From an uncultured Flavobacteriales bacterium (GTDB lineage: Bacteria > Bacteroidota > Bacteroidia > Flavobacteriales_D > Sanyastnellaceae), in NCBI GenBank assembly GCA_937881575.1, contig CALGEI010000144.1, forward strand, positions 1-42,713: a DNA stretch of 42,713 nt, in the 5' to 3' direction. Each line of letters begins with the position of its first letter. Position 1 is the first letter of the stretch. Below the pieces are notes generated by a model that was not told where the DNA came from, ran no database searches, and saw only the letters and a program-made list of their open reading frames with translations. A program made the translations under genes and the position numbers. Shown here one piece after another: positions 8,331 through 35,559 of this stretch.

Positions 8331-8876
8331 TTAGGCGAGAACCTCACCCGTAGACTCATCGATAACTTCTGATTCAACCATTTGCTCGGACTCCGAGTGG
8401 TGTGCAGGCGTCTCGACACTGGATGCCAGGGGATTGGACCCTCCCACTTCGTCCAACGGAAACACCTCTGTAATCTTTTGGTACGCGACAGAAGGGATCA
8501 CATAACCGAGTCCAACCTTGGACATGTGTTGCGCCACCTTGTCGTATGCGTCACGGACGTCATTTGCTGAGAGCAAAATGAATTCGTTGGTTTCCTTTTC
8601 TGTGCCGCGCTGTTCGTCCATTGAAGTCAACGCAATCTTCACTTTAAACCACTTGTCTGCGTCCTCAAAGCGAATGACTTCGGAAAGCACAGATTTGGTG
8701 ATTTGAACAATTTCAAAAGGTCGAATGCCCTCTTGTTCACAGATTTCCGTCATGCGGGTTTCCGCTTCTGTGTAATTGTAGGCATCCAAAACAAACGATT
8801 CAGTGGCCTTGATTTCAGCACCATCGTTGTCGTGTCGGACGTACTTGACCTTGCAAGTAAACCAATGTTTTGTCAT
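8331..8876 (-). CDS. DUF4494 domain-containing protein
   Basis: 181 residues, cytoplasmic, starting MTKHWFTCKVKY, which is the usual beginning of the Bacteroidota DUF4494 family. The frame is open further upstream, but that extension would overlap the divergent pcm gene and lies before a -7 element, so the ATG at 8876 is preferred. The family core (about 1-140) includes ESFVLDAYNYTEAETRMTEI and a conserved KWFKVKIAL strand. The last 40 residues are acidic and low in complexity. Biochemical function is unknown. The gene stands alone between convergent helicase and divergent pcm. Confidence 0.88.
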   Translation of the reverse strand: MTKHWFTCKVKYVRHDNDGAEIKATESFVLDAYNYTEAETRMTEICEQEGIRPFEIVQITKSVLSEVIRFEDADKWFKVKIALTSMDEQRGTEKETNEFILLSANDVRDAYDKVAQHMSKVGLGYVIPSVAYQKITEVFPLDEVGGSNPLASSVETPAHHSESEQMVESEVIDESTGEVLA

Positions 8877-8880
8877 GCCT

Positions 8881-8888
8881 GAAAGATA
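8881..8888 (-). promoter_or_regulatory. -7 element four bases from the DUF4494 start codon
   Basis: TATCTTTC on the minus strand matches five of the six fixed bases of TAnnTTTG and is followed by AGGC-ATG. If used, the transcript would begin at or beside the ATG. Confidence 0.5.
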
Positions 8889-9018
8889 GGTCCCTCGTTT
8901 TTCTGTCGAGGTCTGAGGAACCGTTATTCCATGAACAAGCAATTCACAATTGACGTTCCAAAAGCTCATTCGAATTGAAAGCGAACGTGTCTTGGAGCGT
9001 GCTATCTTGACCCTGAAG

Positions 9019-9669
9019 ATGATGAAAGACGAATACCGCCATAAAGGCTTGAGAAGGAAGATGCTGGACGAATTGCGTACGCTGGGCATCGTCAATGAGG
9101 ACGTGTTGGATGCCATTGATCGCGTGCCGCGGCATTTCTTTTTGTCATCAGCGTTCGAGCAGTTTGCTTATCAAAACAAAGCATTTCAAATCGGTGCCGG
9201 CCAGACCATTAGCAAACCCCATACAGTGGCACGCCAGACGGAATTGTTGGGGTTAGTTCCTGGGCAAAAAGTACTCGAAATTGGAACGGGAAGTGGATTC
9301 CAATGTGCTGTACTCTGCGCCATGGGGTACAAAGTTTACTCCATAGAACGACAGCGCTCACTTTACGATAAGGCACGGCCTTTGCTTTCTTCGATGGGAT
9401 TCAAGCCGCAACTCTTTTATGGGGATGGGTACAAAGGCAAAAAGACGTTTGCTCCTTTTGATGGCATCATAGTCACTTGCGGGGCTCCAGAGGTTCCCGA
9501 GGCCTTGCTTCAGCAATTGGCGATCGGCGGCAAGTTGGTCATTCCTGTTGGAGAAGGCGATACGCAGCTGATGTACAGTTTTGAGCGCCTTGGCGAAAAA
9601 GAATTTACCCGGCAGAAACACGGTGAATTTGCCTTTGTGCCCATGCTTTCCAACCGAGCGCAAGGCTGA
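9019..9669 (+). CDS. pcm: Protein-L-isoaspartate O-methyltransferase
   Basis: 216 residues from ATG 9019 (ATG 9022 is equally possible). It methylates L-isoaspartyl residues in damaged proteins using S-adenosylmethionine, starting their repair. The family start MKDEYRHKGLR sets the initiation site; an earlier in-frame ATG at 8950 would lie in the divergent promoter region. Visible motifs: the substrate-binding region RVPRHFFL, QTISKPHTVARQTELL, the SAM-binding motif VLEIGTGSGFQCAVL, and the post-motifs GDGYKGKK and GGKLVIPVGEG. Length is normal for the family. A -7-like TATCTTGA ends 8 bases before the start. It converges with the YrdC/Sua5-family gene, 5 bases away. Confidence 0.95.
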   Translation: MMKDEYRHKGLRRKMLDELRTLGIVNEDVLDAIDRVPRHFFLSSAFEQFAYQNKAFQIGAGQTISKPHTVARQTELLGLVPGQKVLEIGTGSGFQCAVLCAMGYKVYSIERQRSLYDKARPLLSSMGFKPQLFYGDGYKGKKTFAPFDGIIVTCGAPEVPEALLQQLAIGGKLVIPVGEGDTQLMYSFERLGEKEFTRQKHGEFAFVPMLSNRAQG

Positions 9670-9674
9670 AGCAA

Positions 9675-10301
9675 TTAGAAGTTGAAAACGCCTTCGGTTT
9701 CTCCTAAGCCCTGACGAACCAATACAATTTCCTTCCCCGTGCAATCGATCACTGTGGAGGCATGTAGTTGTCCCATTCCCCCATCCACGATGGCATCCAC
9801 ACGATCGGTGAAGCGTTCTGCAATCAACTCAGGGTCCGTGGTGTACTCTACAACCTCGTCTTCATCGCGAACGGAAGAAACGATCAATGGACGGTCAATC
9901 TCGTTGAGAAGAGCTCGTGTGACCGGATGATTCGGCACCCGAATTCCAATGGTTTTCCGTTTCCCCATGAACCACTTGGGCACCATGCTGCTCGCGGGAA
10001 GGATGAATGTATAGGGACCAGGCAGTGCCTTGCGCATGATTTTAAACAACGCATTGTCCAGCGGCATGGTGTAGGAAGAGAGTTGGCTCAAGTCCGCACA
10101 GGCAATGCTAAACTGCGCCCGGTTCAACGGAATGTCCTTCAGTCGTGCCAGACGCTCCAATCCCTTCGCAGAACCCAATTCACAGGCAAAACTGTAGACC
10201 GTATCCGTCGGGATAATGACCAAGCCATCTCGATTTAAGATCTTGGCGGTCTGTCGAATCTTACGTTCATCCGGATTGTCCGGGTGAATTTTTAAGAGCA
10301 T
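9675..10301 (-). CDS. YrdC/Sua5/YciO-family protein (threonylcarbamoyl-AMP synthase-like)
   Basis: 208 residues covering a single YrdC domain without the C-terminal Sua5 domain. Motifs: the start [14 protein letters not shown] and [15 protein letters not shown], the nucleotide-binding KR-type region ([19 protein letters not shown]), [21 protein letters not shown], and the end [19 protein letters not shown]. The family makes L-threonylcarbamoyl-AMP for the tRNA t6A37 modification. The N-terminus ([11 protein letters not shown]) is more like the YciO branch, whose role is less certain, so I give no symbol. Its ATG overlaps the end of the transaldolase gene by 10 bases, so the two are probably cotranscribed. 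Confidence 0.9.
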
Positions 10302-10957
10302 TCGTTTTTCGCTTTGGCGTGATCCGCCAAAAATTGCGCTAGACCGGAATCTGTCAATGGATGCTTCATCAACCCAAGGATCGCACTCAAAGGACCGGTC
10401 ATGATGTCGGCTCCAATTTCAGCACATTCAATGACGTGCATGGAATGGCGCACGCTTGCAGCGAGGATTTCCGTTCCGAAATCGTAGTTGTCATAAATGG
10501 TGCGAATCTTCTCAATTAACTGCAGTCCATCAGAGCTGATGTCATCCAATCGGCCTACGAATGGGCTGACGTAGGACGCACCGGCTTTCGCGGCCAAAAG
10601 AGCCTGTCCTGGAGAGAAGATGAGCGTGCAGTTGGTGCGAATGCCGTTGTCGGTAAACCAGCGGATCGCCCGAATTCCGTCTACGATGGCCGGGACTTTG
10701 ACCACAATGTTCGGGTGCAATGCAGCCAGGGCTTCGCCTTCCGCGATCATGCCATCGAAATCCGTAGCGATCACCTCGGCGCTAACATCACCGTCAACAA
10801 TTTCACAAATAGCGATGTAATGTGCCTTCACAGCATCTTCGCCGGTAATCCCTTCCTTCGCCATCAGCGAGGGGTTGGTGGTTACACCGTCGAGGATTCC
10901 GAGTTCTTGGGCTTGGCGAATCTGATCGAGGTTCGCAGTGTCGATGAAAAATTTCAT
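10292..10957 (-). CDS. fsa: Fructose-6-phosphate aldolase / TalC-type transaldolase
   Basis: 221 residues. The start [13 protein letters not shown] is the family start; a longer frame upstream would run through the promoter. It carries [13 protein letters not shown], the Schiff-base lysine in [27 protein letters not shown] and SPFVGRLDD, all typical of the short transaldolase/FSA subfamily (about 215-220 residues). These enzymes transfer or cleave dihydroxyacetone units in the pentose phosphate network; sequence alone does not separate transaldolase from fructose-6-phosphate aldolase activity. It heads a two-gene transcript with the YrdC-family gene and is divergent from the DksA-like gene. 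Confidence 0.94.
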
Positions 10958-10961
10958 GCCG

Positions 10962-10991
10962 CGAAAGTACCACTTCCTTTGGTTTGCCAAA
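10962..10991 (-). promoter_or_regulatory. fsa promoter, -33 and -7 elements
   Basis: TTTG (10991-10988), 18 bases, then TACTTTCG (10969-10962), which is followed by CGGC and the ATG. This is the best two-element match seen in the window to TTTG-N19-TAnnTTTG; the -7 element ends only four bases from the start codon. Confidence 0.6.
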
Positions 10992-11014
10992 CCTTGAAAG
11001 GAGGCGTATCTTGT
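10983..11014 (+). promoter_or_regulatory. Possible promoter of the DksA-like gene
   Basis: TTTG (10983-10986), 20 bases, then TATCTTGT (11007-11014), 16 bases before the ATG at 11031. The -33 element overlaps the region used by the divergent fsa promoter. The -7 match is imperfect. Confidence 0.4.
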
Positions 11015-11030
11015 TTACAACACACCGGTT

Positions 11031-11372
11031 ATGTCGAATTGGACCCCAGAAGAGAAGGAACAGATGAAGCAGCGAATGGAAATTCGCATGGCGGAATTGC
11101 GAACCCGGGTGTTGGAGTATCGGGAATTGACGAAGCCAATTCCTCCAGAAAACGCCATTGGTCGCGTGAGCCGAATGGATGCGATCAATAACCGCAGTGT
11201 CAGTGAGGCGGCATTGCGTCAAGTTGAAAAGCAGTTAGCAGGATTGGTTCGCGCGATGGAACGACTCCAAGATGATCGATTTGGATTGTGTCATCGTTGC
11301 GGGGAACCGATTCCTTTTGGCCGAATTCTGTTGTTGCCCGGGGCGACTTCGTGCGTTCGCTGCTCGGATTGA
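11031..11372 (+). CDS. DksA/TraR-type C4 zinc finger protein
   Basis: 113 residues. The N-terminal two-thirds is a charged coiled coil (RMEIRMAELRTRVLEYREL, VSEAALRQVEKQLAGLVRAM). The C-terminal zinc finger has CHRCGEPIPFGRILLLPG and then CVRC, four cysteines in the DksA pattern. Bacteroidota members of this size are thought to act at the RNA polymerase secondary channel, like DksA, but the target is not shown by sequence. The usual acidic tip (DxxDxA) is not clear here, so DksA-like activity with ppGpp is uncertain. Divergent from fsa; nothing downstream appears coupled to it. Confidence 0.9.
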   Translation: MSNWTPEEKEQMKQRMEIRMAELRTRVLEYRELTKPIPPENAIGRVSRMDAINNRSVSEAALRQVEKQLAGLVRAMERLQDDRFGLCHRCGEPIPFGRILLLPGATSCVRCSD

Positions 11373-11467
11373 GGGCATTGTTAAAAAAAGTTCTTTTTTG
11401 TTGGCAAGGTTGAATACGAAAGGGCAAATCACTCCGTTAAGGTCGATGTGAACCACGAGGGATGCGG

Positions 11468-11475
11468 TATTTTTG
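11468..11475 (+). promoter_or_regulatory. -7 element of the lipoprotein-wcaJ transcript
   Basis: TATTTTTG is a perfect match to TAnnTTTG, followed by CAC. It lies 33 bases before the preferred GTG start at 11509, and argues against a longer reading that would begin inside this element. Confidence 0.55.
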
Positions 11476-11508
11476 CACTCCTCACGAGCTCACCACCAAA
11501 TCAAATCT

Positions 11509-12384
11509 GTGCGTTTATTCGACTCCTTGCGTTCAATTTGCATTGTGATAATCGGTTTGGCTTGCCTTACGGGCTGCATCGATTCTTGGGAGGGCCCCCC
11601 ACACTTTTTACACGTGGCCTCCATGGAGGTGGCGACTGAAGGGGATGAGGGGTCGGACTCCCATCGCATTGAAGAAGTTTGGGTCTATACCGAAACGGAT
11701 GTGCTGGGCGCTTTTCCCTTGCCTGCGGACATTCCTCTTTCACCGGAGCAATTGGGATCAACAGCAACGTTGACCTTACTCGGCGGCATTCGGGCGAATG
11801 CTGTTTCGGCCACACGTCAGCCCTATCCTTTTTACGAGGCCCTCCCTACAACAATGACATTGGAGTATGGAGGAAGGGACACCTTGAATTTGACCGTGGG
11901 GTACACCGATCAAACGCAAGTCATTCTGGCGGAAGATTTTGAGAGTGCCAATCGATTTGAAGTGGGGAGCACGAGCACGGCCGAAGTCGTGCGGACAGAA
12001 GATCCAGAGTGGATTTTTGAGGGGGAGGGCAGCGGACTGATCGAGCTGTCGAGTGAACAGCAAGTACTCATCGCCTCCACGAATGAGCAGCAATATGACT
12101 TGTCATCATCTGGGCCCGTCTGGCTCGAGATGAATTACAGCTGCACACAGGCTTTTGCTGTGGGATTGGCTGCTGCGAATGCATCCAATTCGAGCCGCAT
12201 TCCGATCTTGGTGCTCAACCCAACAGATGGAGATTGGAAGAAGATTTATTTGGATTTGAGTCCGGTTATTCGGACCACACCTGATGCGACACATTATGAG
12301 CTGATTCTTGAGGCTTTTTATGACAATTCTCAAGAGGTAACCCACATTGCGCTTGACAACTTCAAGCTGCTTCGGTATCCATGA
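11509..12384 (+). CDS. Lipoprotein of unknown function, partner of the WcaJ-type transferase
   Basis: 291 residues from a GTG start. That start gives a textbook lipoprotein signal (MRLFDSLRSICIVIIGLACL then TGC, with lipidated Cys23). The mature protein is rich in beta-strand and acidic. Its second half (about 150-291) looks like a carbohydrate-binding-type beta-sandwich: VILAEDFESANRFEVGST near the start, the final strand DNFKLLRYP, and WKKIYLDLSPVI between. No catalytic motif is seen. Its stop overlaps the start of the glycosyl-1-phosphate transferase gene by 4 bases (ATGA), which suggests a joint role in envelope or polysaccharide assembly, but this is inference. Confidence 0.78.
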   Translation: MRLFDSLRSICIVIIGLACLTGCIDSWEGPPHFLHVASMEVATEGDEGSDSHRIEEVWVYTETDVLGAFPLPADIPLSPEQLGSTATLTLLGGIRANAVSATRQPYPFYEALPTTMTLEYGGRDTLNLTVGYTDQTQVILAEDFESANRFEVGSTSTAEVVRTEDPEWIFEGEGSGLIELSSEQQVLIASTNEQQYDLSSSGPVWLEMNYSCTQAFAVGLAAANASNSSRIPILVLNPTDGDWKKIYLDLSPVIRTTPDATHYELILEAFYDNSQEVTHIALDNFKLLRYP

Positions 12385-13793
12385 ATAAGCGCATACTCAT
12401 ATCGGCGTATGTGCTCTCTGATTGGTTGACAGGGGCGGTGGCATGGACGGTATTGTTTGCCTACCGGAAGGTGTACATTGAGTTAGCGGAAGAAACGATT
12501 CCAATGGATTTGATGAGCGACTTTCGCTATCAATTGGGGTTGTTTGTCATTCCATTGTTCTGGATATTCGTCCATGGGATGGCGGGCATGTATTTGCGAC
12601 CTATCAAACGCCACCGAATTTTGGAAATCGGTCAAGTGACCTGGACGTCGTTGATTGGGGGGTTGGTTTTGTTCTTCGGTTTGCTGTTGGATGATGCCAT
12701 ATCCAGTTACCAGCAGTACTATGCGTCCCTGAGCGTGTTGATTTTAAGCCATTGGTCCCTGACCTTGGTCGGCCGTTTGTGGATTACCACGCGCACAGTC
12801 AAGCGGATTCACACGGGGCAGTGGAGTTTTCCAACTCTGGTCATCGGTGGCAACGAGCGTGCCGTCAGAATGGTTGAAGAAATTCGATCGCTGCGAAAAG
12901 ATCCGGGTTACCGCTTTGTCGGCTTTATTCAAGTCAATGGTTCGGATACCCATCTGGATGATTTTATGCCCAATCTGGGAAAAGTCCAGGACATCCAGCA
13001 GGTAATTGATGAACACAACATTGAAGAGGTCATCATCGCGATTGGGTCGAGTGATCATGAAGTGCTTGAACGAATTCTCAATGCCCTTGAGGGGTTGAAT
13101 ACAGAGATCCGAATCATACCAGATATCTATGACATTTTGAGTGGTTCTGTCCGAATGTCGAGCATATACGGGGCTCCGTTAATTGAAATAGATCGTCAGA
13201 TCATTCCGCAATGGCAGGTTTCCATCAAACGTATAATGGACTGGAGCGTAAGCATCATTGCGCTTGTTGTGTTGTTCCCTCTTCTTTTCTTGATTGGACT
13301 GTTGGTTTTTGCGACATCAAAGGGCCCGGTATTTTACAGACAAGAGCGCATCGGTCGACACGGTGAGCCCTTCCGTATCATTAAGTTCAGGACCATGTTT
13401 GTTGATGCTGAGCGGTCAGGACCTCAGCTCAGCCGGGATGATGACCCGAGAATTACACCCCTTGGCCGGTATTTACGCAAATCCCGATTGGACGAGTTCC
13501 CTCAGTTTCTTAACGTGTTACGTGGCGATATGGCGTTGGTTGGACCGCGTCCAGAGCGGGCACATTTCATCCATCAAATCATGGACCGCGCACCGCACTA
13601 TCGGCATTTGCAAAAAGTACGTCCGGGCATTACCTCATGGGGTCAGGTAAAATATGGATATGCTCAAAATGTAGACGAAATGGTTCAGCGATTGCGTTTT
13701 GACTTGATCTACATCGAGAACATGAGCATAGCTCTGGATTTTAAAATCTTGTTTTACACGATTATAACTGTCCTTAGAGGAAGCGGTAAGTAG
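12381..13793 (+). CDS. WcaJ-type polyprenyl glycosyl-1-phosphate transferase
   Basis: 470 residues. Several transmembrane segments in the first 140 residues are followed by a Rossmann-like central domain (LVIGGNERAVRMVEEIRSL from about 153), another membrane helix (about 291-310) and the catalytic bacterial sugar transferase domain. Catalytic-domain motifs: GPVFYRQERIGRHGEPF, KFRTMFVDAE, LRKSRLDEFPQFLNVLRGD, LVGPRPER and KVRPGITSWGQVKYGYA. These enzymes load the first sugar phosphate onto undecaprenyl phosphate to begin capsule, exopolysaccharide or O-antigen synthesis. The sugar (often glucose or galactose) cannot be told. No other glycosyltransferases lie beside it, so it is an isolated initiating enzyme paired with a lipoprotein. 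Confidence 0.95.
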   Translation: MNKRILISAYVLSDWLTGAVAWTVLFAYRKVYIELAEETIPMDLMSDFRYQLGLFVIPLFWIFVHGMAGMYLRPIKRHRILEIGQVTWTSLIGGLVLFFGLLLDDAISSYQQYYASLSVLILSHWSLTLVGRLWITTRTVKRIHTGQWSFPTLVIGGNERAVRMVEEIRSLRKDPGYRFVGFIQVNGSDTHLDDFMPNLGKVQDIQQVIDEHNIEEVIIAIGSSDHEVLERILNALEGLNTEIRIIPDIYDILSGSVRMSSIYGAPLIEIDRQIIPQWQVSIKRIMDWSVSIIALVVLFPLLFLIGLLVFATSKGPVFYRQERIGRHGEPFRIIKFRTMFVDAERSGPQLSRDDDPRITPLGRYLRKSRLDEFPQFLNVLRGDMALVGPRPERAHFIHQIMDRAPHYRHLQKVRPGITSWGQVKYGYAQNVDEMVQRLRFDLIYIENMSIALDFKILFYTIITVLRGSGK

Positions 13794-13821
13794 GCTCGTC
13801 TATACTTAAGTGTATTTAGGC

Positions 13822-13829
13822 GATATTTG
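13822..13829 (+). promoter_or_regulatory. -7 element three bases from the OmpA-family start codon
   Basis: GATATTTG matches five of six fixed bases of TAnnTTTG and is followed by CAC-ATG. It supports ATG 13833 as the start and a transcript with little or no leader. Confidence 0.5.
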
Positions 13830-13832
13830 CAC

Positions 13833-14984
13833 ATGTCTCCATTTGTGTCTCTAAAAGGTTTGTGCTCCATTGTGTGGGTCGCCTTCGTGTTTCATTTTGG
13901 AGGGGGAGCTTGGGCCCAAGAATTCAGCCCATTTTCTGGGGCCATGCAGCGCTCACACGAGCTCATGATGGACAATGTGAGCTTTTTTTTGGATGGAGCA
14001 GTGGAGGTTGATATTCCTTCGGGAGAGGTGAATTGGCGAATGAGCGAGCGCCAAGTTTTAACGCAACTGCAACGAACTGTCCAAGATGTTCATGCCCTAC
14101 AATCGCTCGATTTGCTGCCGTCATTCCGGACCTTTTCTCCAGAAGTCATCACCCTGATTGGACGGGTTGAGAAACTGACTTACCGGGATTTACGCCGATG
14201 GAGAATGGCCGAAGGTTTATCAGAAGCGCAGGAATGGTATGTCATGGTTCAAAGTGCTTTGGATGAACTGAAAATGCAAGTGGCTATGGAATTGAATGTG
14301 CATTATAACACGGCATTGAAACATGCTTTGGACGATGCAATTGACCTGCAGCAGAAGGAGGGAGGTATGTCCGTTGTTGCACTCGATTGGGATCCCAATT
14401 CGTTGCTGTCACCATTGGATTGGAGCGCCTCGACAATTACACAAGGTGAACTTTCATCCATCGATCGCTCAGAGTGGATTTCTCAACCGGCGTTGCGAGT
14501 GAATCAACTGGATGACCCGAGCGATTGGTTGGAGCGAATTCTTTCTTTATTAGAATCTCAAGATCAAAGATTGCGACGACTGGAGGGGGGTAGCTCTGCG
14601 ACGACGAGTGAAATGGAGCATTGGTCGCCCTTGGCCTCGGACCCTGCTCTGTCCCATCTTCATTTGCCGGAGGCGCTTGACATAGGGTTTCTCACAGGAT
14701 CCGCTCAATTGGGGCTCAACGCGAAGATGCAGCTCCATGAAATCATGGAGTTGATGGGGCGCTATCCCCAAATTCGCGCAGTTTGCACGGGCCATGCTGA
14801 TGCCACCGGAGAGCGGAATAGCAATTTACTGCTATCCAAACGACGGGCTCAAGCGGTCCAAGCATACCTCTTGGAAACAGGGGTGTCCAGTGACCGTGTT
14901 CTGCTCAATTATTTTGGTGAGGAAAGAGAACGCCAGTCAGGATCTCAGGATCGCCGTGTAGAGGTGGCTTTTTATTTGAAATAG
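13833..14984 (+). CDS. OmpA-family outer membrane/peptidoglycan-binding protein
   Basis: 383 residues. Signal peptide at about 1-29 (WVAFVFHFGGGAWAQ), then a helical central region of no known family (about 30-280; its end includes LERILSLLESQDQRLRRLEG, probably coiled coil), then a C-terminal OmpA-like domain (about 284-383). The OmpA domain has IGFLTGSAQLGLNAKMQLHE, VCTGHADATGERNSNLLLSK and RRAQAVQAYLLETGVSSDRV; the Asp and Arg usually needed to bind diaminopimelate are in the GHAD and LSKRRA segments. It is likely periplasmic and tied to peptidoglycan. It lies alone, 39 bases after wcaJ. Confidence 0.88.
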   Translation: MSPFVSLKGLCSIVWVAFVFHFGGGAWAQEFSPFSGAMQRSHELMMDNVSFFLDGAVEVDIPSGEVNWRMSERQVLTQLQRTVQDVHALQSLDLLPSFRTFSPEVITLIGRVEKLTYRDLRRWRMAEGLSEAQEWYVMVQSALDELKMQVAMELNVHYNTALKHALDDAIDLQQKEGGMSVVALDWDPNSLLSPLDWSASTITQGELSSIDRSEWISQPALRVNQLDDPSDWLERILSLLESQDQRLRRLEGGSSATTSEMEHWSPLASDPALSHLHLPEALDIGFLTGSAQLGLNAKMQLHEIMELMGRYPQIRAVCTGHADATGERNSNLLLSKRRAQAVQAYLLETGVSSDRVLLNYFGEERERQSGSQDRRVEVAFYLK

Positions 14985-15642: not shown

Positions 15643-15647
15643 GTGCC

Positions 15648-18172: not shown

Positions 18173-18177
18173 AATTG

Positions 18178-19086: not shown

Positions 19087-20508
19087 ATGATCCAGTCGCG
19101 TCTGTTAACCCAATTGGCTGGCCCTGTGTTGGCTTGTCTCGTGTATTTCTTAGCGCCTCATTGGGGTTGGTCTGATGCTGCGTCAGCGGTATTGGCGGCG
19201 AGCACTTGGATGCTGGTGTGGTGGATTTCTGAAGCGGTTCCGATTGGTGTGACTTCAATCCTGCCCATTGTGATTTTTCCACTTTTGGGAATATCCACAG
19301 TCGGAGAGACTACGGCTCCTTATGGCTCGCATTATGTGTTCTTGTTTATGGGGGGCTTTTTGGTGGCGATTGCATTGGAAAACTGGAATTTGCACCGTCG
19401 ATTTGCATTGAATATTCTGGCCGCCGCAGGTGGAAGTCCTCGCCGTTTAATTGGCGGGTTCATGCTTGCCACGGCGTTGTTGAGCATGTGGATTTCAAAC
19501 ACAGCGACGACCCTTATGATGCTGCCTATTGCCCTTTCCGTCATATCCAAATTGGAGTTGAAGCAACATCCCAACTTTGCCGTGGCCTTGCTTTTGGGTA
19601 CGGCGTATGCAGCGAACATTGGAGGCATGGCCACGTTGGTGGGAACTCCGCCCAACGTCGCTTTGGCAGGGATCATGGAGGAGCAGTACGGCGTCATCAT
19701 TCCGTTCATGGAATGGATGTTGCTCGCTGCACCGTTTTCTGCCATCTTGCTTTTCTTGGTCTATGTGGTGTTGACGCGCGTGCTGCTTCCGATTTCGAAA
19801 GAAACTGTTGGTGAGGGGCTACAGCCGATCCGCAAAGAGTTGAAGGCGCTTGGCAGCTGGTCAGCAGCAGAAAAACGCGTGGGGATGGTCTTCGGAACGA
19901 CCGCTTTGTTGTGGATTGGTCGGCGATTCATTGAGGATTGGACCGGTTGGTCGCTCAACGATACGACCATTGCCATGGCAGCGGGCATCAGCTTGTTTTT
20001 GATCCCTTCGGGAGAGCGCAACCGAACGCTGATGTCCTGGGACGAAGCCAGACGATTGCCTTGGGAAATCTTACTGCTATTCGGTGGAGGTTTGACATTG
20101 GCCGGTGCTCTCGGCCGTGCAGGGATTTTGGAGGTTGTTGCCGATACCCTCTCTGAACAAGGCGGGTGGCCATTGTGGCTGATGATCGCAGCATTTGCTT
20201 TTGTCGCCTTGATGCTGACTGAAGTCATGAGCAATCTCGCACTTACGGTCGTCATGGTTCCTGTCGTTGCTCAAGTGGCGTTGCAATTGGGATTGAACCC
20301 GCTGATGTTGGCCGTGCCAGTGGCACTGGCCAGTAGCTGTGCATTCATGCTGCCGATGGCGACGCCGCCCAATGCCATCATTTTCGGAAGCAATCAGATT
20401 CGCATGGGGCAAATGGCGCGCGTTGGATTTGTACTGAATCTCATCGCTGCATTTCTAGCAGTGGTTTGGTCGGCCTTTGTGCTTCCTGCATGGTTGGAGA
20501 TGCTGTAA
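19087..20508 (+). CDS. SLC13/DASS-family sodium-coupled anion transporter
   Basis: 473 residues, almost all hydrophobic with 11-12 predicted membrane segments. The two SLC13 signature motifs are present, each a Ser/Thr-rich turn followed by TPPN: SNTATTLMMLP with LVGTPPNVALAG in the first half, and LTEVMSNLALTVVM with MATPPNAIIFGSNQ in the second. Members import di- and tricarboxylates, or sulfate in some branches, with sodium. The substrate cannot be fixed from sequence. Its stop codon TAA is inside the -7 element that I propose for aroQ, 9 bases downstream. Likely cotranscribed with the EEP hydrolase. Confidence 0.95.
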   Translation: MIQSRLLTQLAGPVLACLVYFLAPHWGWSDAASAVLAASTWMLVWWISEAVPIGVTSILPIVIFPLLGISTVGETTAPYGSHYVFLFMGGFLVAIALENWNLHRRFALNILAAAGGSPRRLIGGFMLATALLSMWISNTATTLMMLPIALSVISKLELKQHPNFAVALLLGTAYAANIGGMATLVGTPPNVALAGIMEEQYGVIIPFMEWMLLAAPFSAILLFLVYVVLTRVLLPISKETVGEGLQPIRKELKALGSWSAAEKRVGMVFGTTALLWIGRRFIEDWTGWSLNDTTIAMAAGISLFLIPSGERNRTLMSWDEARRLPWEILLLFGGGLTLAGALGRAGILEVVADTLSEQGGWPLWLMIAAFAFVALMLTEVMSNLALTVVMVPVVAQVALQLGLNPLMLAVPVALASSCAFMLPMATPPNAIIFGSNQIRMGQMARVGFVLNLIAAFLAVVWSAFVLPAWLEML

Positions 20509-20513
20509 ATTCG
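20506..20513 (+). promoter_or_regulatory. -7 element four bases from the aroQ GTG
   Basis: TAAATTCG matches five of six fixed bases of TAnnTTTG and is followed by AGCC-GTG. It overlaps the stop codon of the SLC13 gene. Confidence 0.4.
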
Positions 20514-20517
20514 AGCC

Positions 20518-20952
20518 GTGAAGAAAATACTTGTACTCCACGGCCCGAATCTCAATTTGTTGGGCAGACGTGAACCGGTTTTGTATGGTGCCATGACGCT
20601 CGAACAATTGAATGCCTCGCTTCACTCCATGGCCAATTCAGGAGGTTTTGAATTGATCACGCTCCAAAACAACGTAGAGGGTGAGTTGATTAACTCTTTG
20701 CAAGAACATGGGTTCTCTGCTCATGGAATCGTGTTCAACCCGGGAGGATACACACATACCAGTGTGGCCATTCGCGACGCTGTGCTGGCCATTGATTCTC
20801 CGGTTATTGAAGTCCACCTCACGAACCCGGATGCCCGCGAAGAATTTCGAAAACCATCTCTTTTGCGAGAGGCTTGTCTAGGAAGTATCGGAGGGCTCGG
20901 AACAGAGAGCTATGTTGCGGCGCTTCGGTTTTTTATGGAGCATGGACGATGA
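20518..20952 (+). CDS. aroQ: Type II 3-dehydroquinate dehydratase
   Basis: 144 residues from a GTG start; the protein begins KKILVLHGPNLNLLGRREP (after fMet), the invariant family start, which carries the active-site Arg and the following Tyr (VLYGAM). Further motifs: LQNNVEGELINSLQ, FNPGGYTHTSVAIRDA with the catalytic His, and VIEVHLTNPDAREEFRKPS. It forms the dodecameric class II enzyme that dehydrates 3-dehydroquinate in the shikimate pathway. Length is normal. It lies 9 bases after the SLC13 gene and its 3' end overlaps the convergent lipase-like gene by 20 bases. Confidence 0.96.
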   Translation: MKKILVLHGPNLNLLGRREPVLYGAMTLEQLNASLHSMANSGGFELITLQNNVEGELINSLQEHGFSAHGIVFNPGGYTHTSVAIRDAVLAIDSPVIEVHLTNPDAREEFRKPSLLREACLGSIGGLGTESYVAALRFFMEHGR

Positions 20953-24587: not shown

Positions 24588-25295
24588 TTACCAGAATTGT
24601 TCGACGATCAGGGTGTCGATCAGGTGATGGCGTTCAATGGATAGAATCAATGAAGGCAGAGTGTCCCTTTGGCCCGAGGGCGATACCATGGCTGCATTCC
24701 ACATCCTCGAGGCGGGTAGCTCTTCCCAGGGGTGGATGAGCGTTTGAATTAAAAGCGAAGGATTGGGAGAGGCTCCAGGTGTGAAACTGAGACAAGATGC
24801 TTGCTCTGAAGGCCCTAGATCATATGGACTCCAAAGTTCGACCGTGTAGGGCTCACCGGATTGACAAGGCTTGCGACCGCCGATACACCGGATCCATGAG
24901 GGGGTAGGAAGTTGGATGCTCGCTGCTGCTTCTGCAGGAAGCGTCCACGTGCCTTCATAGTGTAAGGATGCGGTATTTGTTTGGTTTCCAGATCGACCTA
25001 TGTGCAAGTGGTACAATCCTTCGAGCCCTTGAATGGGGATGTGAGCGTTTCCAAAAGCATCGGTGTAAATGGTGTCTAGCACGGGCTCGAGCGTATAGCC
25101 ATCCTGCCAATTCCCTGAATGTTGGAGCTCTTCAAGGAGCACAATCCAAGCCGAATCGACGGGAGAGCCTTCGATGTACTCTGTGTGCACAGCCCACGAT
25201 GTTGGAAGGGGTTCTGGACGACAAGACAACAGCCCAATCCCGAGTACAGCGCAAGTCAAACCCCATAAGCTTAGATTGATTCCATTCCCCTTCAT
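24588..25295 (-). CDS. Lipoprotein of unknown function upstream of the lipase-like gene
   Basis: 235 residues from the ATG at 25295 (MKGNGINLSLWGL); the longer reading to 25310 would break the signal. The lipobox is GLLSC, with lipidated Cys25. The next stretch resembles a small carboxypeptidase-regulatory-like beta-sandwich (VDSAWIVLLEEL, YTDAFGNAHIPIQGLEGLYHLHIG). Two close cysteines follow (WIRCIGGRKPC). The C-terminal part is not recognisable. It precedes the T9SS lipase-like gene by 10 bases, so the two may be expressed together and act at the same surface; that link is inferred. Confidence 0.75.
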   Translation of the reverse strand: MKGNGINLSLWGLTCAVLGIGLLSCRPEPLPTSWAVHTEYIEGSPVDSAWIVLLEELQHSGNWQDGYTLEPVLDTIYTDAFGNAHIPIQGLEGLYHLHIGRSGNQTNTASLHYEGTWTLPAEAAASIQLPTPSWIRCIGGRKPCQSGEPYTVELWSPYDLGPSEQASCLSFTPGASPNPSLLIQTLIHPWEELPASRMWNAAMVSPSGQRDTLPSLILSIERHHLIDTLIVEQFW

Positions 25296-25299
25296 GGGG

Positions 25300-25307
25300 C
25301 AAAACTC
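25300..25307 (-). promoter_or_regulatory. -7 element four bases from the lipoprotein start
   Basis: GAGTTTTG on the minus strand, followed by CCCC-ATG, matches five of six fixed bases of TAnnTTTG. It would give the lipoprotein and lipase-like genes their own promoter within the minus-strand block. Confidence 0.4.
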
Positions 25308-25368: not shown

Positions 25369-25935
25369 TCAGTCAAACTTTCTGAGGGCCTTGTCAAGGA
25401 GTTTGGCCAAAGCGTGAGCGTCTTTCTCATTCAATTGTTTGCCGAGCACGAATGACTTGTTTTGGTGAGTAAATTGAATGGTATCACCCCCCATAATCCA
25501 AAAACTTTGATCCAAGTTGGCCAGAAAGGATGTGGATTCTCTCCGGATCACCTCCATTTTTTGAAGGTTTCCGGTTTGGAATAACTGGGCCCTTCCGGTC
25601 GTTCCAAAAGCATTTTTAACGGACATGCTACCGGCGTGAATCCGGATGGACTCATTGCCCTTGCGACGCCATAGAATCACCTTGCTCACACGGAAAGCGA
25701 AGAAGGTCCAAAATGCGAGTGAAATGCTATAGAACATCCGTTCATCACCGTCTGAATGTGTCAGGCTCCAAAAGAATGTTGCACCGACGAGGAGCCACGC
25801 TGTCATCCAACCCTCCAACGCGAGTTGCTGGCTTTTCGGGATTTTTTGATCAATGACAACAGTCAACGCATCTTCATGCCATGCATAGGTGATCCGCTTT
25901 CCGATTCTTTGAATAGGCGGTTGGCTTTGACTCAT
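25369..25935 (-). CDS. Two-TM membrane protein of unknown function
   Basis: 188 residues. A short N-terminal cytoplasmic or periplasmic part (ITYAWHEDALTVVID) is followed by two hydrophobic segments (about 43-60 and 68-90; AWLLVGATFFWSLTH, SISLAFWTFFAFRVSKVIL) and a soluble domain with a beta-rich PH-like feel (SVKNAFGTTGRAQLFQ, FLANLDQSFWIMGG, KSFVLGKQLNEKDAHALAKL). I do not recognise the family. Its start overlaps the bshA stop (ATGA), so it is translationally coupled to bacillithiol synthesis, though no functional link is evident. Confidence 0.75.
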   Translation of the reverse strand: MSQSQPPIQRIGKRITYAWHEDALTVVIDQKIPKSQQLALEGWMTAWLLVGATFFWSLTHSDGDERMFYSISLAFWTFFAFRVSKVILWRRKGNESIRIHAGSMSVKNAFGTTGRAQLFQTGNLQKMEVIRRESTSFLANLDQSFWIMGGDTIQFTHQNKSFVLGKQLNEKDAHALAKLLDKALRKFD

Positions 25936-27077
25936 GCGGGTGATTGCTTTTCAGTTGGAACCAATCGGGCATAAATGGCTTCGTATCGTGGTAAGATATT
26001 GGCGATGTTAAACCGTTCAGAATGTTGAATGGCTTGAGCTTTGAATTGCGCCAAATAGCTCGGGTTGTCAAGCACGGACATGGCGCTTTGTGCCATGCTC
26101 TCGATATCGCCTACGTCATGGAGAAACCCACTGACACCATGTTCAATCACTTCTGGCAATCCTCCTGTATTGGAAGCAACGACAGGCACGCCGCTGGCCA
26201 TTGCTTCCAGCGCGGCCAAGCCAAAACTCTCAGTGGCTGAAGGCAAGAGAAAGAGATCGCTTATGCGCAAAGGTTCAATGGGGTTCTTGATTTTTCCAAT
26301 GAAAATGACATCATCGCGGTATCCCATCTCTTCGGCTGCTTTCTCGACACGCGATCGTTCAGGGCCATCGCCAACCAATAAAAGTTTCGCCGGGATTTTC
26401 TTACGCACTTCAATGAATATTTTGAGCACGTCATCTAACCGCTTGACCGGTCTGAAGTTTGAGATGTGCGTCAAAATCGGCTGTCCTTGAGGAGCGATGT
26501 GCCGCCGCAACTCTTCGTCCGGAGTCCCCTTGTACTGGGCAGGGCAGATGAAATTGGGAATGAAATCAATGGTCTGATTTTGACATCCAAATAATTTCAA
26601 GGTATCCGACTTCAGGCTTTCAGAAACTGCTGTAACAGCATCGGATTGATTGATGGCATAGGAGATGACCGGTTCAAAGGCGGGGTCTTTACCGAGCAGT
26701 GTGATGTCTGTCCCGTGCAATGTCGTGACAATGGGGAGGTGGTGTCCTTTCGAGGCGAGAATTGCTCGAGCCATTACAGCCGCACTGGCGTGGGGAATGG
26801 CGTAATGCACATGCAATAAGTCCAAGCGGTGTTTGATGGCGACTTCGACCATTTTACTCGTCAAGACGAGTTCGTAAGGTTGGAAGTCAAAAAGCGGATA
26901 ATTGGATACTCTTACCTCGTGGAAGAACATGTTGCTCTTGAGACTGCCCATTCTGGCCGGCTCACTGTAGGTGATGAAATGCAATTCATGCCCTTTGGCG
27001 GCAAGTGCCTTTCCCAATTCGGTAGCAACGACTCCAGAACCACCAAAAGTGGGGTAACAAACAAATCCTATGCGCAT
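25932..27077 (-). CDS. bshA: N-acetyl-alpha-D-glucosaminyl L-malate synthase (bacillithiol step 1)
   Basis: 381 residues, a GT4-family GT-B glycosyltransferase. The N-terminal half has RIGFVCYPTFGGSGVVATEL, HEVRVSNYPLF, LHVHYAIPHASAAVMAR and VTTLHGTDITLLGKDP. The C-terminal half has LTHISNFRPVKRLDDVLKIF, LLLVGDGPERSRVE and LFLLPSATESFGLAALEAM with the EAMASGVPVVASNTGG donor loop. These match BshA closely, including the malate-binding N-terminal signature. It joins GlcNAc from UDP-GlcNAc to L-malate as the first step to bacillithiol, a low-molecular thiol common in Bacteroidota. BshB and BshC are not in the window. It lies 24 bases after the GH3 gene. Confidence 0.96.
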   Translation of the reverse strand: MRIGFVCYPTFGGSGVVATELGKALAAKGHELHFITYSEPARMGSLKSNMFFHEVRVSNYPLFDFQPYELVLTSKMVEVAIKHRLDLLHVHYAIPHASAAVMARAILASKGHHLPIVTTLHGTDITLLGKDPAFEPVISYAINQSDAVTAVSESLKSDTLKLFGCQNQTIDFIPNFICPAQYKGTPDEELRRHIAPQGQPILTHISNFRPVKRLDDVLKIFIEVRKKIPAKLLLVGDGPERSRVEKAAEEMGYRDDVIFIGKIKNPIEPLRISDLFLLPSATESFGLAALEAMASGVPVVASNTGGLPEVIEHGVSGFLHDVGDIESMAQSAMSVLDNPSYLAQFKAQAIQHSERFNIANILPRYEAIYARLVPTEKQSPA

Positions 27078-27081
27078 GGTA

Positions 27082-27089
27082 CAAAGTTC
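27082..27089 (-). promoter_or_regulatory. -7 element four bases from the bshA start
   Basis: GAACTTTG on the minus strand matches five of six fixed bases of TAnnTTTG and is followed by TACC-ATG. It would let bshA be transcribed apart from the upstream block. Confidence 0.4.
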
Positions 27090-30766: not shown

Positions 30767-30795
30767 GATTCCGCAAGTTATAGCGATTGTATGAG

Positions 30796-31851
30796 TTATT
30801 GATGACTAAAAACACCGGGATTGAAAGCAATTCCGAAATGCGTTGAAGACCCCGCAAAATGGTAGGTATTGCGACTGATTCGGAATCTGAATCGTTGGGA
30901 AGCGAAGTTTAGGCCCAATGCCAGTCCGTTGGTCCCCAAACGCCCAGAAGCTTGCATCTCTTTCCGTCTTCGGTAATCAAATCCAGCGAGAATACTCAAT
31001 GCTGGCCCGAGGCTGATGGAGGTCCCGATTCCCACGTGTCGCATGAGTTGATCTCCAAATTTGAAGGAGGAGTTTGGGAGGATTTCACCCGTCAAAGGAT
31101 CCACGAGATCATCATAGGTGCCGGCAGGAGCGAGGTCCCAATTTTCAAGGTGACCGGCCCTCAGATAGAGTGTGAACGGTGCGTTTCGAAATCCTTTGGT
31201 GATTCCAAATTGTAAATCTTTCGGGAGTACACCACTTGGTTGATTGCCCTTCAAACCGAACTGATGTCCGAGGCTCGTAATGGCTGCTCCAATCGCCAGG
31301 CTTCGTTGAGGCCAAACCCCGTGAATGCTGAAGTCCATCCCGAGGAGACCAGCGACTTCACGGTCCAAGGAACGCATGCCAAAAAATCCTTGAGCGCCCA
31401 GGGTCCAGGTTGAATCAAGGCGATACGACCAACCTGAAAAGAGGATGGACTCGCTTCCGCTGAACGTACCCAGATCACTGCCATCGGCATCCATTTCTTG
31501 AAACTTCCCAAAGCTTTGAAATCGAGCGCCCACCTGTCCGTTGATTTGGCCTCCCGGTTTGAAAGCGTAGTTGACGGTTGTCAAGCTGATGCCGGCGAAA
31601 TAATCCACGAAATCGATGGCCAAATTTCGTTCTGTAGCCGAATCAAGCAGGGCGACGTTATTGGATGCCGAATGCATGTCGGCCTGGAGGTCGGCGATGA
31701 TCCGTCCACCCAATGCAGCAGCCCGGGCGTCCGCAGGAATTTCAAAAAGCAATGATTCAGAAACTTGAGCGCTGACTTGAGCATGCGAAAAACCCAATGC
31801 CAAAACAAGGCTGAGAAAACAGGGGAGAATGCGTCGGGATTCAGGCATCAT
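30796..31851 (-). CDS. porQ: Type IX secretion system protein PorQ
   Basis: 351 residues. A signal peptide (ending near SHAQVSAQ) is followed by a predicted outer membrane beta-barrel: SLLFEIPADARAAALGGRII near the mature N-terminus, DFVDYFAGISLTTVNYAF, alternating strands to the end, and a C-terminal FGIAFNPGVFSHQ. This matches the PorP/SprF-like fold of PorQ and the early motif is characteristic. PorQ belongs to the T9SS attachment complex with PorU, PorV and PorZ, which processes and anchors cargo at the surface. It is 13 bases after lon and 29 before cmk. T9SS cargo genes of both sorting types lie in the same window. Confidence 0.92.
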   Translation of the reverse strand: MMPESRRILPCFLSLVLALGFSHAQVSAQVSESLLFEIPADARAAALGGRIIADLQADMHSASNNVALLDSATERNLAIDFVDYFAGISLTTVNYAFKPGGQINGQVGARFQSFGKFQEMDADGSDLGTFSGSESILFSGWSYRLDSTWTLGAQGFFGMRSLDREVAGLLGMDFSIHGVWPQRSLAIGAAITSLGHQFGLKGNQPSGVLPKDLQFGITKGFRNAPFTLYLRAGHLENWDLAPAGTYDDLVDPLTGEILPNSSFKFGDQLMRHVGIGTSISLGPALSILAGFDYRRRKEMQASGRLGTNGLALGLNFASQRFRFRISRNTYHFAGSSTHFGIAFNPGVFSHQ

Positions 31852-31864
31852 GATTCAACAAACG

Positions 31865-34423
31865 TTACTGGGTCGCTTTTTCTTGTAGCAAAGCGCGTTC
31901 AACGACTTCACTGATGTGCTTGACAAAGGTAAAAGTCAGTCCTTTGATGTAACGCTCGTCGATTTCATCAATGTCCTGCCGATTTCGCTCGCACAAGATG
32001 ATTTCCTTGATGCCTGCTCGTTTGGCGGCTAAAATCTTCTCCTTGATGCCTCCAACGGGCAACACTTGACCGCGCAATGTGATTTCACCCGTCATGGCGA
32101 GCGCTTTCCGCACCTTGCGGCCGGTAAAGGCGGATACCATCGCTGTGATCATGGTGATCCCTGCGCTGGGCCCATCTTTAGGGATCGCTCCCTGAGGAAC
32201 GTGCAAATGGACATTGCGTTCATTGAGTTCAGCCGCATTGAGTCCGATGGACTCAGCATGCGACTTGATCCACTCCAGCGCAATGATGGCGCTTTCTTTC
32301 ATGACATCTCCCAAGTTGCCCGTAAGGGTGAGCTTGCCTTTTCCAACGGTCAAAGATGTTTCAATGAACAAGATGTCGCCTCCGTTTGGCGTCCAGGCCA
32401 AACCTGTCACTACGCCGGCCACATCGTTTCCTTGGTATTGATCCTTGGCTCTTGAAGGACCCAAGATCTTCGGTAAGTCCTTGGACTTGACTTCCGCTTC
32501 GAAAACTTCATCCAATGCAATTTCCTTCGCCCGGTTGCGGATGATTTTGGCAATGCGTTTGTCCAATCCACGCACACCACTTTCATTGGTGTATTGCTCA
32601 ACAATGGACTCCAAGGTGGCCACGGGGATTTTGATTTGCTCTCTGGTCAAACCGGTTTCCGAGATGTGCTTGGGGGCGAGGTGGCGTTTGCCAATTTGGA
32701 CTTTTTCTTCCACTGTATACCCTGTGACCTCGATGATCTCCATTCGATCGCGCAAAGCGGGTTGGATGGAAGAGAGGTTGTTGCACGTGGCGATGAACAT
32801 CACTCTACTGAGATCATAATCCAGGTCGAGGTAGTTGTCGTGGAAGGTGCTGTTTTGTTCCGGGTCGAGTACTTCAAGCATTGCGCTCGAAGGGTCTCCA
32901 TGGTGGTCTCGTCCTAATTTGTCGATTTCATCCAAGACAAACAAGGGGTTGGATGTTCCGGCCTTTTTCAAATTCTGAAGGATGCGACCGGGCATCGCGC
33001 CGATGTACGTTTTGCGATGTCCTCTGATTTCAGCTTCATCCCTCAAACCACCTAAACTCATGCGGACATATTCCCGATTGAGGGCCTTGGCGACGCTTTT
33101 CCCAAGTGATGTTTTGCCGACTCCCGGAGGTCCATACAGACAGATGATGGGTGCCTTCAGATCTCCCTTGATCTTCAGTACAGCCAGGTGCTCAATGATG
33201 CGCTCCTTCACCTTGTCCAAGCCATAGTGGTCTTCGTCTAACGTGGATTGTGCATGGTGTAAATCAAAGTTGTCGACAGACGCTTTGTCCCAAGGTAGAT
33301 CTAGCATCAAGTCAACGTAGTTGGCTTGGACACTGTATTCCGCTGATTGGGAGTTCATGCGCTCCAACTTCTGAATTTCCTTGGCAAAAGCATCTTTGGC
33401 ATGATCTGGCCATTGCATGCTTTCCGCTCGCAACTTCCGTTCTGCGACCTCTTGGGCCTGCGGATTGTTGCCCAATTCTTCCTGAATCTGCTTCAGCTGC
33501 TGATTCAAAAAGTATTCCCGTTGCTGTTGGTCCAGTTCGCCTTTGACTTTGGTCTGAATATCTCGCTTTAAGGAGAGCATTTGCTTTTCCTTGTGCAGCA
33601 ATTCCAAAACTCGGCTCGCCCGCGCTTTGATTCCAGGAACTTCCAACAACGCTTGTTTCTCCTCGACAGGAGCGTTCATGTTGGAGCCAATGAAATTGAC
33701 CAAGAATGTCAGGCTCTCAATGCTCTTGATGGCAAAGCCTGCTTCTGAAGGGATGTTGGGGCTCAATTGGATGATCTCCAAGGCCAACTCCTTCAAGCTG
33801 TCCATCAGGGCCTTGTGTTCATCATCTTTCGGTGGAAGATTTTCGGCGTCGTATTCCAAAACGCTGGCCTTCATATAAGGCTCTTCCTGAACGATATGAG
33901 TCCACTTGAATCGCTTTTGGCCCTGGAGGATGACCGTGTTAGATCCGTCAGGCATGCGCAGCATTTTGATCACCTTCGCTACCGTTCCAACCTCATTGAG
34001 GTCCGTTCCTACTGGAATTTCAATGTCATCGTTTTTTTGACTCACCACTCCGATGCGTTGCTCGTTTTGGTGGGCCTTTTTGATGAGGCGAATGGATCGA
34101 TCGCGGCCAACCGTGATAGGAATGACAACCCCAGGAAATAGAACCGTGTTGCGCAGAGAGAGCAGAGGCAAGACCTCTGGTACTTCTTCTTTTTGCATGG
34201 CCTCCTCATCTTCCGATGAAATCAGCGGGATGAACTCGTGGTCCTGGGAGTCAGACAAAATCCAGGTTTCTTCTTCTTGCGCGTCTTCAAACATCTTCTC
34301 TTCGTTTCTGTGCTCCACTCCGTTCAAACCCCGTGCCACAGGCATTTCAGACATTGTGTCAGGCGAACTTGTCACGATTGGCTCGACCGTTGGTTCATTG
34401 TCGTTTGAAATTCTCGTCTCCAT
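31865..34423 (-). CDS. lon: ATP-dependent protease Lon (LonA type)
   Basis: 852 residues. An acidic N-terminal extension (about 1-80) precedes the Lon substrate-binding domain ([20 protein letters not shown]), a coiled-coil region, the AAA+ module with Walker [10 protein letters not shown] (431-439) and Walker B LFVLDEID (494-501), and the S16 protease domain with catalytic S753 in PKDGPSAG and K796 in GGIKEK. It degrades misfolded and regulatory proteins in the cytoplasm. The ATG at 34423 has an AGGAGG 8 bases upstream, unusual in this phylum; ATGs at 34354 and 34294 are alternatives. The chosen start overlaps the GlmU-like gene by 52 bases. Confidence 0.95.
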
Positions 34424-35547
34424 TGATCTTCCTCCTCATCGCTCAATTGATGCCGTCTTCTTTCCATGACCTTCGACGCGGTTTCGATGAATCGGTCAAA
34501 TCGATGTTCGGTCCAATGGCCATCGCCACCCCATGAAAATGGCGGGACATGTTGGGGTGGAAACGTACTGCCCACAATGACACTGCCCGGGCCGATTACC
34601 GTGCCGGTGTTGAACATGGTGTTGATGGCACATTTACTGTGGTCTCCCATGATGAGGCCGCAAAACTGAAGTTCCGTGTCTTGCATCGATGAGGTGACGG
34701 CGTCCCAAATTCGGACAGGGCTGTAGTTGTTTTTGAGGTTACTTGTGTTGGTGTCCGCTCCCAGATTACACCACTGTCCAATGACAGAATTCCCGACGAA
34801 TCCATCGTGCCCTTTGTTGCTGTATCCTAAAAAGACACTGTTTGACACCTCGCCACCAATTCGGCAATGCGGACCAACAGTCGTCGGACCGTAAACGCGA
34901 CTGCCCATTTTTATGATGCTCCCTTCATCCAATAAGAAGGGGCCGCGTATGTGGGAACCTTCTTGAACTTCAGCATCAGGCCCAATGAATATGGGGCCAT
35001 GTTCGGTGTTCAAAGTGCTGGCTAGTATGCGCGCTCCTGGCGCCACGAATACCAGATTGGCATCGCCAATCACAATGGAGTGATCGCCATGAACAGCCGG
35101 GTCCCAAGCACGCGCATTCCAATGGGTTCGAATCAGCTCCGCTTGGGATTCGATCGCCCACCCGCATTTCAAAAAGAAATCCGTCGGATGGTCAATCAAA
35201 AACGCTTCGGTGAGATTGATCGGAGCCTGCTGCTCTGGTTGCATTTCACGGGGGCGGAAAAGTTCCGTTTTACCAGAGTACAAGGACTGACCGGGTTGCA
35301 AGTTCAATAAAGCGATAGCAGCGTCTTCATTTGGAATCCAGCGGTCATTGATGGCGCCTTGACACCAGTATTGTTGAACATATGACAGGGGCAGGTGTTG
35401 TACTTGTTCCTGTGCTTTTTGCATGTAATAATTCCAGAGCTGCTCCAGTGTGAAAGCACCCCATCGCATCTTGCCATTTTGATGCGAGAAGCTGAAAGGA
35501 TAGAGTTGTTTCCAATGCTCGTCAGAGAAAAAGGTACATTGCGTCAT
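34372..35547 (-). CDS. GlmU-family protein with left-handed beta-helix (putative sugar nucleotidyltransferase)
   Basis: 391 residues from ATG 35547 (MTQCTFFSDEHWKQLYPFSF). The longer reading to 35631 lies in the divergent promoter region. The N-terminal part resembles the Bacteroidota GlmU-like family, in which a degenerate nucleotidyltransferase domain is joined to hexapeptide repeats. The repeats (about 160-370) include GPIFIGPDAEVQEGSHIRGP, VYGPTTVGPHCRIGGEVSNS, GNSVIGQWCNLGADTNTSNL and CAINTMFNTGTVIGPGSVIV. The end is FIETASKVMERRRHQ. It probably transfers an acetyl, or activates a sugar phosphate, in envelope sugar synthesis, but the classical GlmU uridylyltransferase signature is not seen, so the reaction is uncertain. 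Heads the long minus-strand block. Confidence 0.87.
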   Translation of the reverse strand: MTQCTFFSDEHWKQLYPFSFSHQNGKMRWGAFTLEQLWNYYMQKAQEQVQHLPLSYVQQYWCQGAINDRWIPNEDAAIALLNLQPGQSLYSGKTELFRPREMQPEQQAPINLTEAFLIDHPTDFFLKCGWAIESQAELIRTHWNARAWDPAVHGDHSIVIGDANLVFVAPGARILASTLNTEHGPIFIGPDAEVQEGSHIRGPFLLDEGSIIKMGSRVYGPTTVGPHCRIGGEVSNSVFLGYSNKGHDGFVGNSVIGQWCNLGADTNTSNLKNNYSPVRIWDAVTSSMQDTELQFCGLIMGDHSKCAINTMFNTGTVIGPGSVIVGSTFPPQHVPPFSWGGDGHWTEHRFDRFIETASKVMERRRHQLSDEEEDQWRREFQTTMNQRSSQS

Positions 35548-35551
35548 GGCA

Positions 35552-35559
35552 TAAAAGTA
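35552..35559 (-). promoter_or_regulatory. -7 element four bases from the GlmU-like start
   Basis: TACTTTTA on the minus strand matches five of six fixed bases of TAnnTTTG and is followed by TGCC-ATG. It is the likely promoter of the whole minus-strand block down to the lipase-like gene. Confidence 0.5.

Follow-up and report, generated by a model that had tools for sequence, protein, structure and literature searches.

The DNA analysed here is a stretch of 42,713 nucleotides from an uncultured Flavobacteriales bacterium of the family Sanyastnellaceae (contig CALGEI010000144.1 of assembly GCA_937881575.1), hereafter termed the window. Its subject is the promoter element TAnnTTTG, the -7 element of Bacteroidota, which is repeatedly located a few bases before start codons in the window and which, in the genome to which the window belongs, is in excess exactly 4 nt before ATG. 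The sites at this distance are in all likelihood primary-sigma promoters of the Bacteroidota type that place position +1 on the A of the start codon, so that leaderless mRNAs are predicted for perhaps 8-10% of the genes. That -7 elements close to start codons imply leaderless transcripts had been proposed in a preliminary description of the window, and this proposal is supported by the peak of the element at a spacing of 4 nt, by its near absence inside operons, and by its displacement to upstream positions in relatives. The spacing peak, the restriction of the element to promoter-proximal genes, its conservation, the presence of two spacing states, and the preference for C at -1 are established by computation. 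Bacteroidota ignore Shine-Dalgarno (SD) sequences, and the way in which their ribosomes select start codons is understood only in part.

When the genome (2.59 Mb in 213 contigs) is searched for exact TAnnTTTG-N4-ATG, 79 sites are found, whereas the reversed pattern gives 17 and the element with 8 spacer bases gives 21. The genome-wide peak of the motif at a start-proximal offset, which the preliminary description had named as a check of its proposal, is therefore present, and it is sharp at spacing 4. Exact elements number 39 at spacing 4 and mostly 2-11 at other spacings in an 813-kb sample, which is biased in that its contigs were drawn from the list of motif hits. The start codons at spacing 4 in this sample are ATG in 39 cases, GTG in 3, and TTG in 2, and a spacing-4 peak is absent for GTG starts in the genome sample. 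An element with at most one mismatch is located at spacing 4 in 21 of the 209 genes of a 283-kb contig (C42), and in 11 of the 196 genes of 40 contigs picked by number, where the mean at other spacings from 0 to 30 is about 2.6. When any plausible ATG or GTG start is allowed for the 405 genes of C42 and these 40 contigs, 56 genes have the element at spacing 3-5, versus 15-30 at other offsets.

In the window, 9 of the 32 gene calls have an element with at most one mismatch at spacing 3-5 when all plausible ATG and GTG starts are allowed, and the twelve other offset windows of three bases each yield between 1 and 7 genes, with a mean of 2.5. The DUF4494 gene is not among the nine, because its coding-based start fell just outside the search range. 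The preliminary description had expected about 0.5 cases by chance, which is too low once the choice of start is free, and the window alone is suggestive, not decisive, evidence for an excess of the motif. The explanation that the sites reflect chance or base composition, with starts picked to suit the motif, can draw on the other offsets in the window that reach up to 7 of the 32 genes. It is hardly credible, however, being refuted by the genome-wide counts, the spacing profile, the operon contrast, and the conservation of the element.

For the operon contrast, genes were sorted by their upstream neighbour into divergent genes, co-directional genes with a gap of at least 40 or of 15-39, and operon-internal genes (overlap or a gap of less than 15). 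In an 832-gene sample, an element with at most one mismatch is located at spacing 4 in 46 of 208 divergent genes, 26 of 240 genes with a gap of at least 40, 8 of 84 genes with a gap of 15-39, and 1 of 152 operon-internal genes. The corresponding counts in the less biased subset, which consists of C42 and the 40 contigs picked by number, are 16/92, 11/125, 2/37, and 0/73. Because the element accompanies genes that require a promoter of their own and is nearly lacking within operons, this result indicates that it is a promoter rather than a ribosome-binding signal. When the counts at neighbouring spacings are subtracted by hand, the share of predicted leaderless genes in the less biased subset (327 genes) is perhaps about 8-10%.

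Real start-proximal translation signals do exist in this lineage, because operon-internal starts favour A at -13/-12, A at -3, and C at -2 and -1, with some G at -5. A reading in which the start-proximal TAnnTTTG-like motif is itself such a signal, namely a non-Shine-Dalgarno ribosome-binding site, is nevertheless very improbable, because operon-internal starts, where the signal should be strongest, carry the motif only once in the whole sample and never in the less biased subset. The operon contrast largely refutes this reading. The frequency of G at -5 is 31% at operon-internal starts (n=120) and 13-18% at neighbouring positions.

The exact element is located at spacing 4 in 35 genes of the sample, 20 of which are divergent from their upstream neighbour. 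These genes include ssb, lysS, carA, thiL, lpxD, truB, purK, and mnmA, as well as those for peptide deformylase (def), RibBA (ribBA), and a dihydrolipoamide-dehydrogenase-like protein. The def and ribBA genes diverge from a gap of about 50 bases (L034:1762-1813), each ATG being preceded by an exact -7 element at a spacing of 4 nt, and both are predicted to be leaderless.

The position of the element was compared among orthologues of three genes, with 103 distinct loci for def (110 read, 7 duplicates dropped), 18 of 19 read for the DUF4494 gene (a second copy in one genome omitted), and 27 of 29 read for the transaldolase gene fsa (a partial hit omitted). Where an exact element is present, the one nearest to the start is counted, and the search reaches 40 nt. 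In the 148 loci pooled, the element is located at spacing 3-6 in 62, at 14-37 in 67, and at 10-11 in 2, and 17 loci have no element; none of the 148 has it at spacing 7-9 or 12-13. The respective numbers for def are 48, 41, and 2, with 12 loci lacking an element within 40 nt. For DUF4494, the eight closest orthologues have the element at spacing 4, eight others have it at 19-35 nt, and two have none. For fsa, it is located at spacing 4 in 6 loci and at 16-31 nt in 18, and is not found in 3. The protein N-termini align at the same conserved ATG in both spacing states for all three genes, which suggests that a leader can appear or disappear without a change of the protein start. The loci with spacing 3-6 are predicted to be leaderless, and those with spacing 14-37 are predicted to have leaders of about 10-33 nt. 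The location of the same element 14-37 nt upstream in orthologues also argues against a translation signal.

The short state is shared by all 14 def rows of the clade that contains the window's genome. A quick tree of def gives at least 11 changes of state, an uncertain count in that 43 of the 100 inner branches are poorly supported. In a control series with rpsU, the element is located 18-39 nt upstream of the start in all 28 readable loci (exact in 22), and an exact element at spacing 3-5 is found in none of these 28 loci. It is quite possible, although we propose it only tentatively, that translation initiation in this uncultured family occurs in two discrete, gene-specific modes, either without a leader or with one of at least about 10 nt, and that short leaders are avoided.

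The sequence context was analysed for 75 genes that were chosen on the -7 element alone (at most one mismatch, spacing 4, own promoter). The element of these genes fits TAHHTTTG, with G in 1% at -9 and 13% at -10, and with T-6 replaced by C in 25%. C is located at -1 in 66 of the 75 genes (88%) versus 60 of 120 operon-internal starts (50%) (p=4e-8). From the distance between the element and the start codon, we infer that transcription starts at the A of the ATG. Alternatively, the promoters may be real and transcription may start 1-3 nt upstream of this A or at several bases, so that leaders are tiny or mixed and only part of the genes are truly leaderless. The -7 elements of Flavobacterium johnsoniae, which are separated from the transcription start site (TSS) by 4 or 5 nt according to excerpts of PMC6847099, and the cases with spacing 5 and spacing 3 that occur here speak for this possibility. 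It is unlikely, however, in view of the sharp peak at 4 and the strong C-1/A+1, and at spacing 4 a distance of 5 nt to the TSS would strip the A from the AUG.

According to the preferred reading, in which these promoters yield leaderless mRNAs, the -7 element TAHHTTTG (T-6 often C) of a primary-sigma promoter would end exactly 4 nt before the start codon, and RNA polymerase would start at the A of the ATG, aided by C at -1, so that the mRNA begins with 5'-AUG. The ribosome would then load directly on the 5' AUG, as it does on leaderless mRNAs elsewhere, this loading mode being presumed by analogy. In this lineage, perhaps 8-10% of the genes, housekeeping genes included, would be expressed in this way beside a leadered mode with leaders of about 10-33 nt, and leaders of intermediate length would be avoided. 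The cognate primary sigma factor, which for this type of promoter lacks region 1.1, was not found by a motif search, which covered only the sampled part of the genome.

The start-proximal element is not confined to this genome. In all seven genomes of its own genus, the motif exceeds the reversed control 4.5-7.3-fold, and higher values occur in some genera of the family (74 vs 2 and 149 vs 32). The reversed pattern is a crude control for AT-rich genomes, and the spacing-8 count was therefore added for 149 genomes of the class. The spacing-4/spacing-8 counts are 79/21 and 129/43 in this family, and another family of the order has 128/57. Ratios of about 0.6-2.0 are obtained in those other genomes of the class where the two counts were compared (for example, 142/119, 123/72, 89/45, and 41/70). 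The excess in the family, with a ratio of about 3-3.8, thus differs in degree and is not unique. Outside the class, genera of a family (f25) of another class likewise have TAnnTTTG-N4-ATG in strong excess relative to the reversed control, with counts of 56/8, 38/6, and 28/4 (for example, genomes G144, G136, and G113).

Among promoter-proximal genes, exact promoters are located at spacing 3-5 in 6 of 26 cases in the window's own genome (less biased) and in 4 of 15 in each of two relatives (14 of 56 for the family), versus 1 of 28 for a set of 16 flavobacterial loci, most of them from cultured bacteria (pooled p=0.016). Loci of other metagenome-assembled genomes, which are also rich in def, give 24 of 68. 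The short state of def is found in none of the 16 cultured flavobacterial loci.

Several points weigh against the assignment of these sites to leaderless promoters. The transcript 5' ends are known here only by inference from the -7-to-start spacing, and much of the gene sample lies on contigs first met in the list of motif hits. The cultured comparator (1/28) is small, consisting of 16 short loci, every one of which contains def. TTTG of the -33 element is enriched at no upstream position in the 75-gene set, which is consistent with the preliminary observation of a -33 element at fsa only. Three of the 28 rpsU loci, including that of the window's genome, additionally carry an element at spacing 5 with one mismatch; sites of this quality are therefore not proof. 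Finally, the leadered promoters of the genome have C at -1 in 37% of 46 cases, at least 5 of which are leaderless cases with a mis-called start. Because leadered promoters do not prefer C at -1, this base does not act as an initiator for this polymerase in general; the 50% at operon-internal starts likewise speaks against a role as promoter initiator. The preference for C at -1 is best explained as one common to start codons and reinforced at leaderless sites, and it probably helps to place initiation exactly on the A where precision counts.

The 3' tail of 16S rRNA is readable in 33 of 150 genomes of the order, seven of which belong to the family. The anti-SD core is CCUCC in six of these seven and UCUCC in a congener (G451, locus L261), whose 16S rRNA ends with ...TTATCTCCTTT / ATTATCTCCTTT. 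The tail of the window's own genome was not found in a search that allowed up to 3 mismatches. Upstream of rpsU, a GGAG-type motif is found in none of the 10 loci of the closest clade (L280-L289), and AGGAGG is kept in two other family members (L275 and L276). In Chryseobacteria-like Flavobacteriales, according to excerpts of PMC9976891, the anti-SD sequence is altered and the rpsU signal matches it, whereas no matching signal is seen in the lineage of the window. A link between the loss of the anti-SD sequence and leaderless genes is only a hint, to be taken as a lead and not as a result.

The seven sites that the preliminary description had reported in the window are located as listed in Table 1, each with one mismatch to the six fixed bases of TAnnTTTG. 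Pfam matches are DUF4494, TAL_FSA, OmpA, DHquinase_II (aroQ), a family-4 glycosyltransferase (bshA), and NTP_transf_4 (GlmU-like); the putative lipoprotein gene, so labelled in that description, has no match in Pfam. Conservation in relatives confirms the DUF4494 and fsa sites as candidate leaderless promoters. The bshA site is only weakly supported as a putative conserved leaderless promoter: its closest relative has AAACTTTG-actcc-ATG, most other family members lack the element there, and a few have an element at spacing 4-5 before either this ATG or one slightly further upstream. The leaderless status of aroQ is doubtful, because it has a GTG start and the starts at spacing 4 in the genome sample are mostly ATG.

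Table 1. Start-proximal -7 and -7-like elements in the window
Gene	Position (strand)	Element, spacer, and start codon	Basis
DUF4494 gene	8331-8876 (-)	-7 element TATCTTTC at 8888-8881, then AGGC, ATG 8876-8874	read directly
Transaldolase/fsa gene	10292-10957 (-)	-7 element TACTTTCG at 10969-10962, then CGGC, ATG 10957-10955	read directly
OmpA-family gene	13833-14984 (+)	-7-like element GATATTTG, then CAC, ATG; site 13822-13835; spacing 3	read directly
aroQ	20518-20952 (+)	-7-like element TAAATTCG, then AGCC, GTG; site 20506-20520	read directly
Putative lipoprotein gene	24588-25295 (-)	-7-like element GAGTTTTG, then CCCC, ATG; site 25293-25307	read directly
bshA	25932-27077 (-)	-7-like element GAACTTTG at 27089-27082, then TACC, ATG; site 27075-27089	read directly; weak
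GlmU-like gene	34372-35547 (-)	-7-like element TACTTTTA, then TGCC, ATG; site 35545-35559	read directly

Two further elements are seen in the window. At 1046-1061 (+), the sequence TAACTTTC-ACATC-ATG contains an element with one mismatch, at spacing 5 from an ATG that may be an upstream start of the gene whose end is at 2681. Three consecutive tRNA genes are located at 3116-3413 (-), with an exact TAnnTTTG just upstream at 3442 on the same strand.

The predicted leaderless promoter class in this uncultured flavobacterial family is a real finding and belongs to a kind that is known; what is new to us is how widely it is used here, the constancy of the -7 spacing, and the switch between two states. 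A survey of the open-access literature, judged by titles and the beginnings of abstracts, gave no description of this lineage or of two-state spacing. Leaderless mRNAs in Bacteroidetes were already suspected from an AT-rich bias in the excerpted text of PMC5397173, which cites reports of a high fraction, and the excerpts of PMC10783764 tie leaderless mRNA to Flavobacteriia without CCUCC. A 2011 survey based on Pribnow-like signals alone reported leaderless genes for 1 of the 37 Bacteroidetes/Chlorobi genomes and, in its excerpts, warned of undercounting (PMC3160421). The TSS maps cover Bacteroidota lineages whose measured share of leaderless mRNAs is low. If about a tenth of the genes are indeed leaderless here, the phylum would have a second mode of start selection that is scarcely seen in its model species, and orthologues that differ in state would be natural pairs for testing it. 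TAHHTTYG-N3C-ATG would also be a usable start signal for gene finders.

Excerpts of the mapping studies allow a comparison with other Bacteroidota. In F. johnsoniae, -7 elements are located 4-5 nt before mapped TSSs, 87% of the predicted leaders are longer than 10 nt, and the -33 element is weak (PMC6847099); the leaderless share is 5.5% in F. psychrophilum, and about 3.7% of the 5' untranslated regions are shorter than 10 nt in Bacteroides thetaiotaomicron. The primary-sigma promoters of these three species have the same -7 consensus as the sites described here (TTTG/TAnnTTTG), with G avoided at -9 and mostly at -10, and with a weak or absent -33 element. The mapped Bacteroidota are mostly leadered, whereas in three genomes of this family spacing 3-5 is seen for 14 of the 56 exact promoters. 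As in the Kozak-like initiation of F. johnsoniae (PMC6847099), A is favoured at -13/-12 and -3 of operon-internal starts, but C at -2/-1 and some G at -5 are favoured here as well, and leaderless genes cannot use upstream signals. Finally, the predicted leaderless genes resemble those of Actinobacteria, Deinococcus-Thermus, and archaea in the fixed short distance between the element and the start, the lack of a leader, the use of ATG, and the position as the first gene of a transcription unit. They differ from these in that the element is the Bacteroidota -7 box and not a Pribnow box or an archaeal TATA box.

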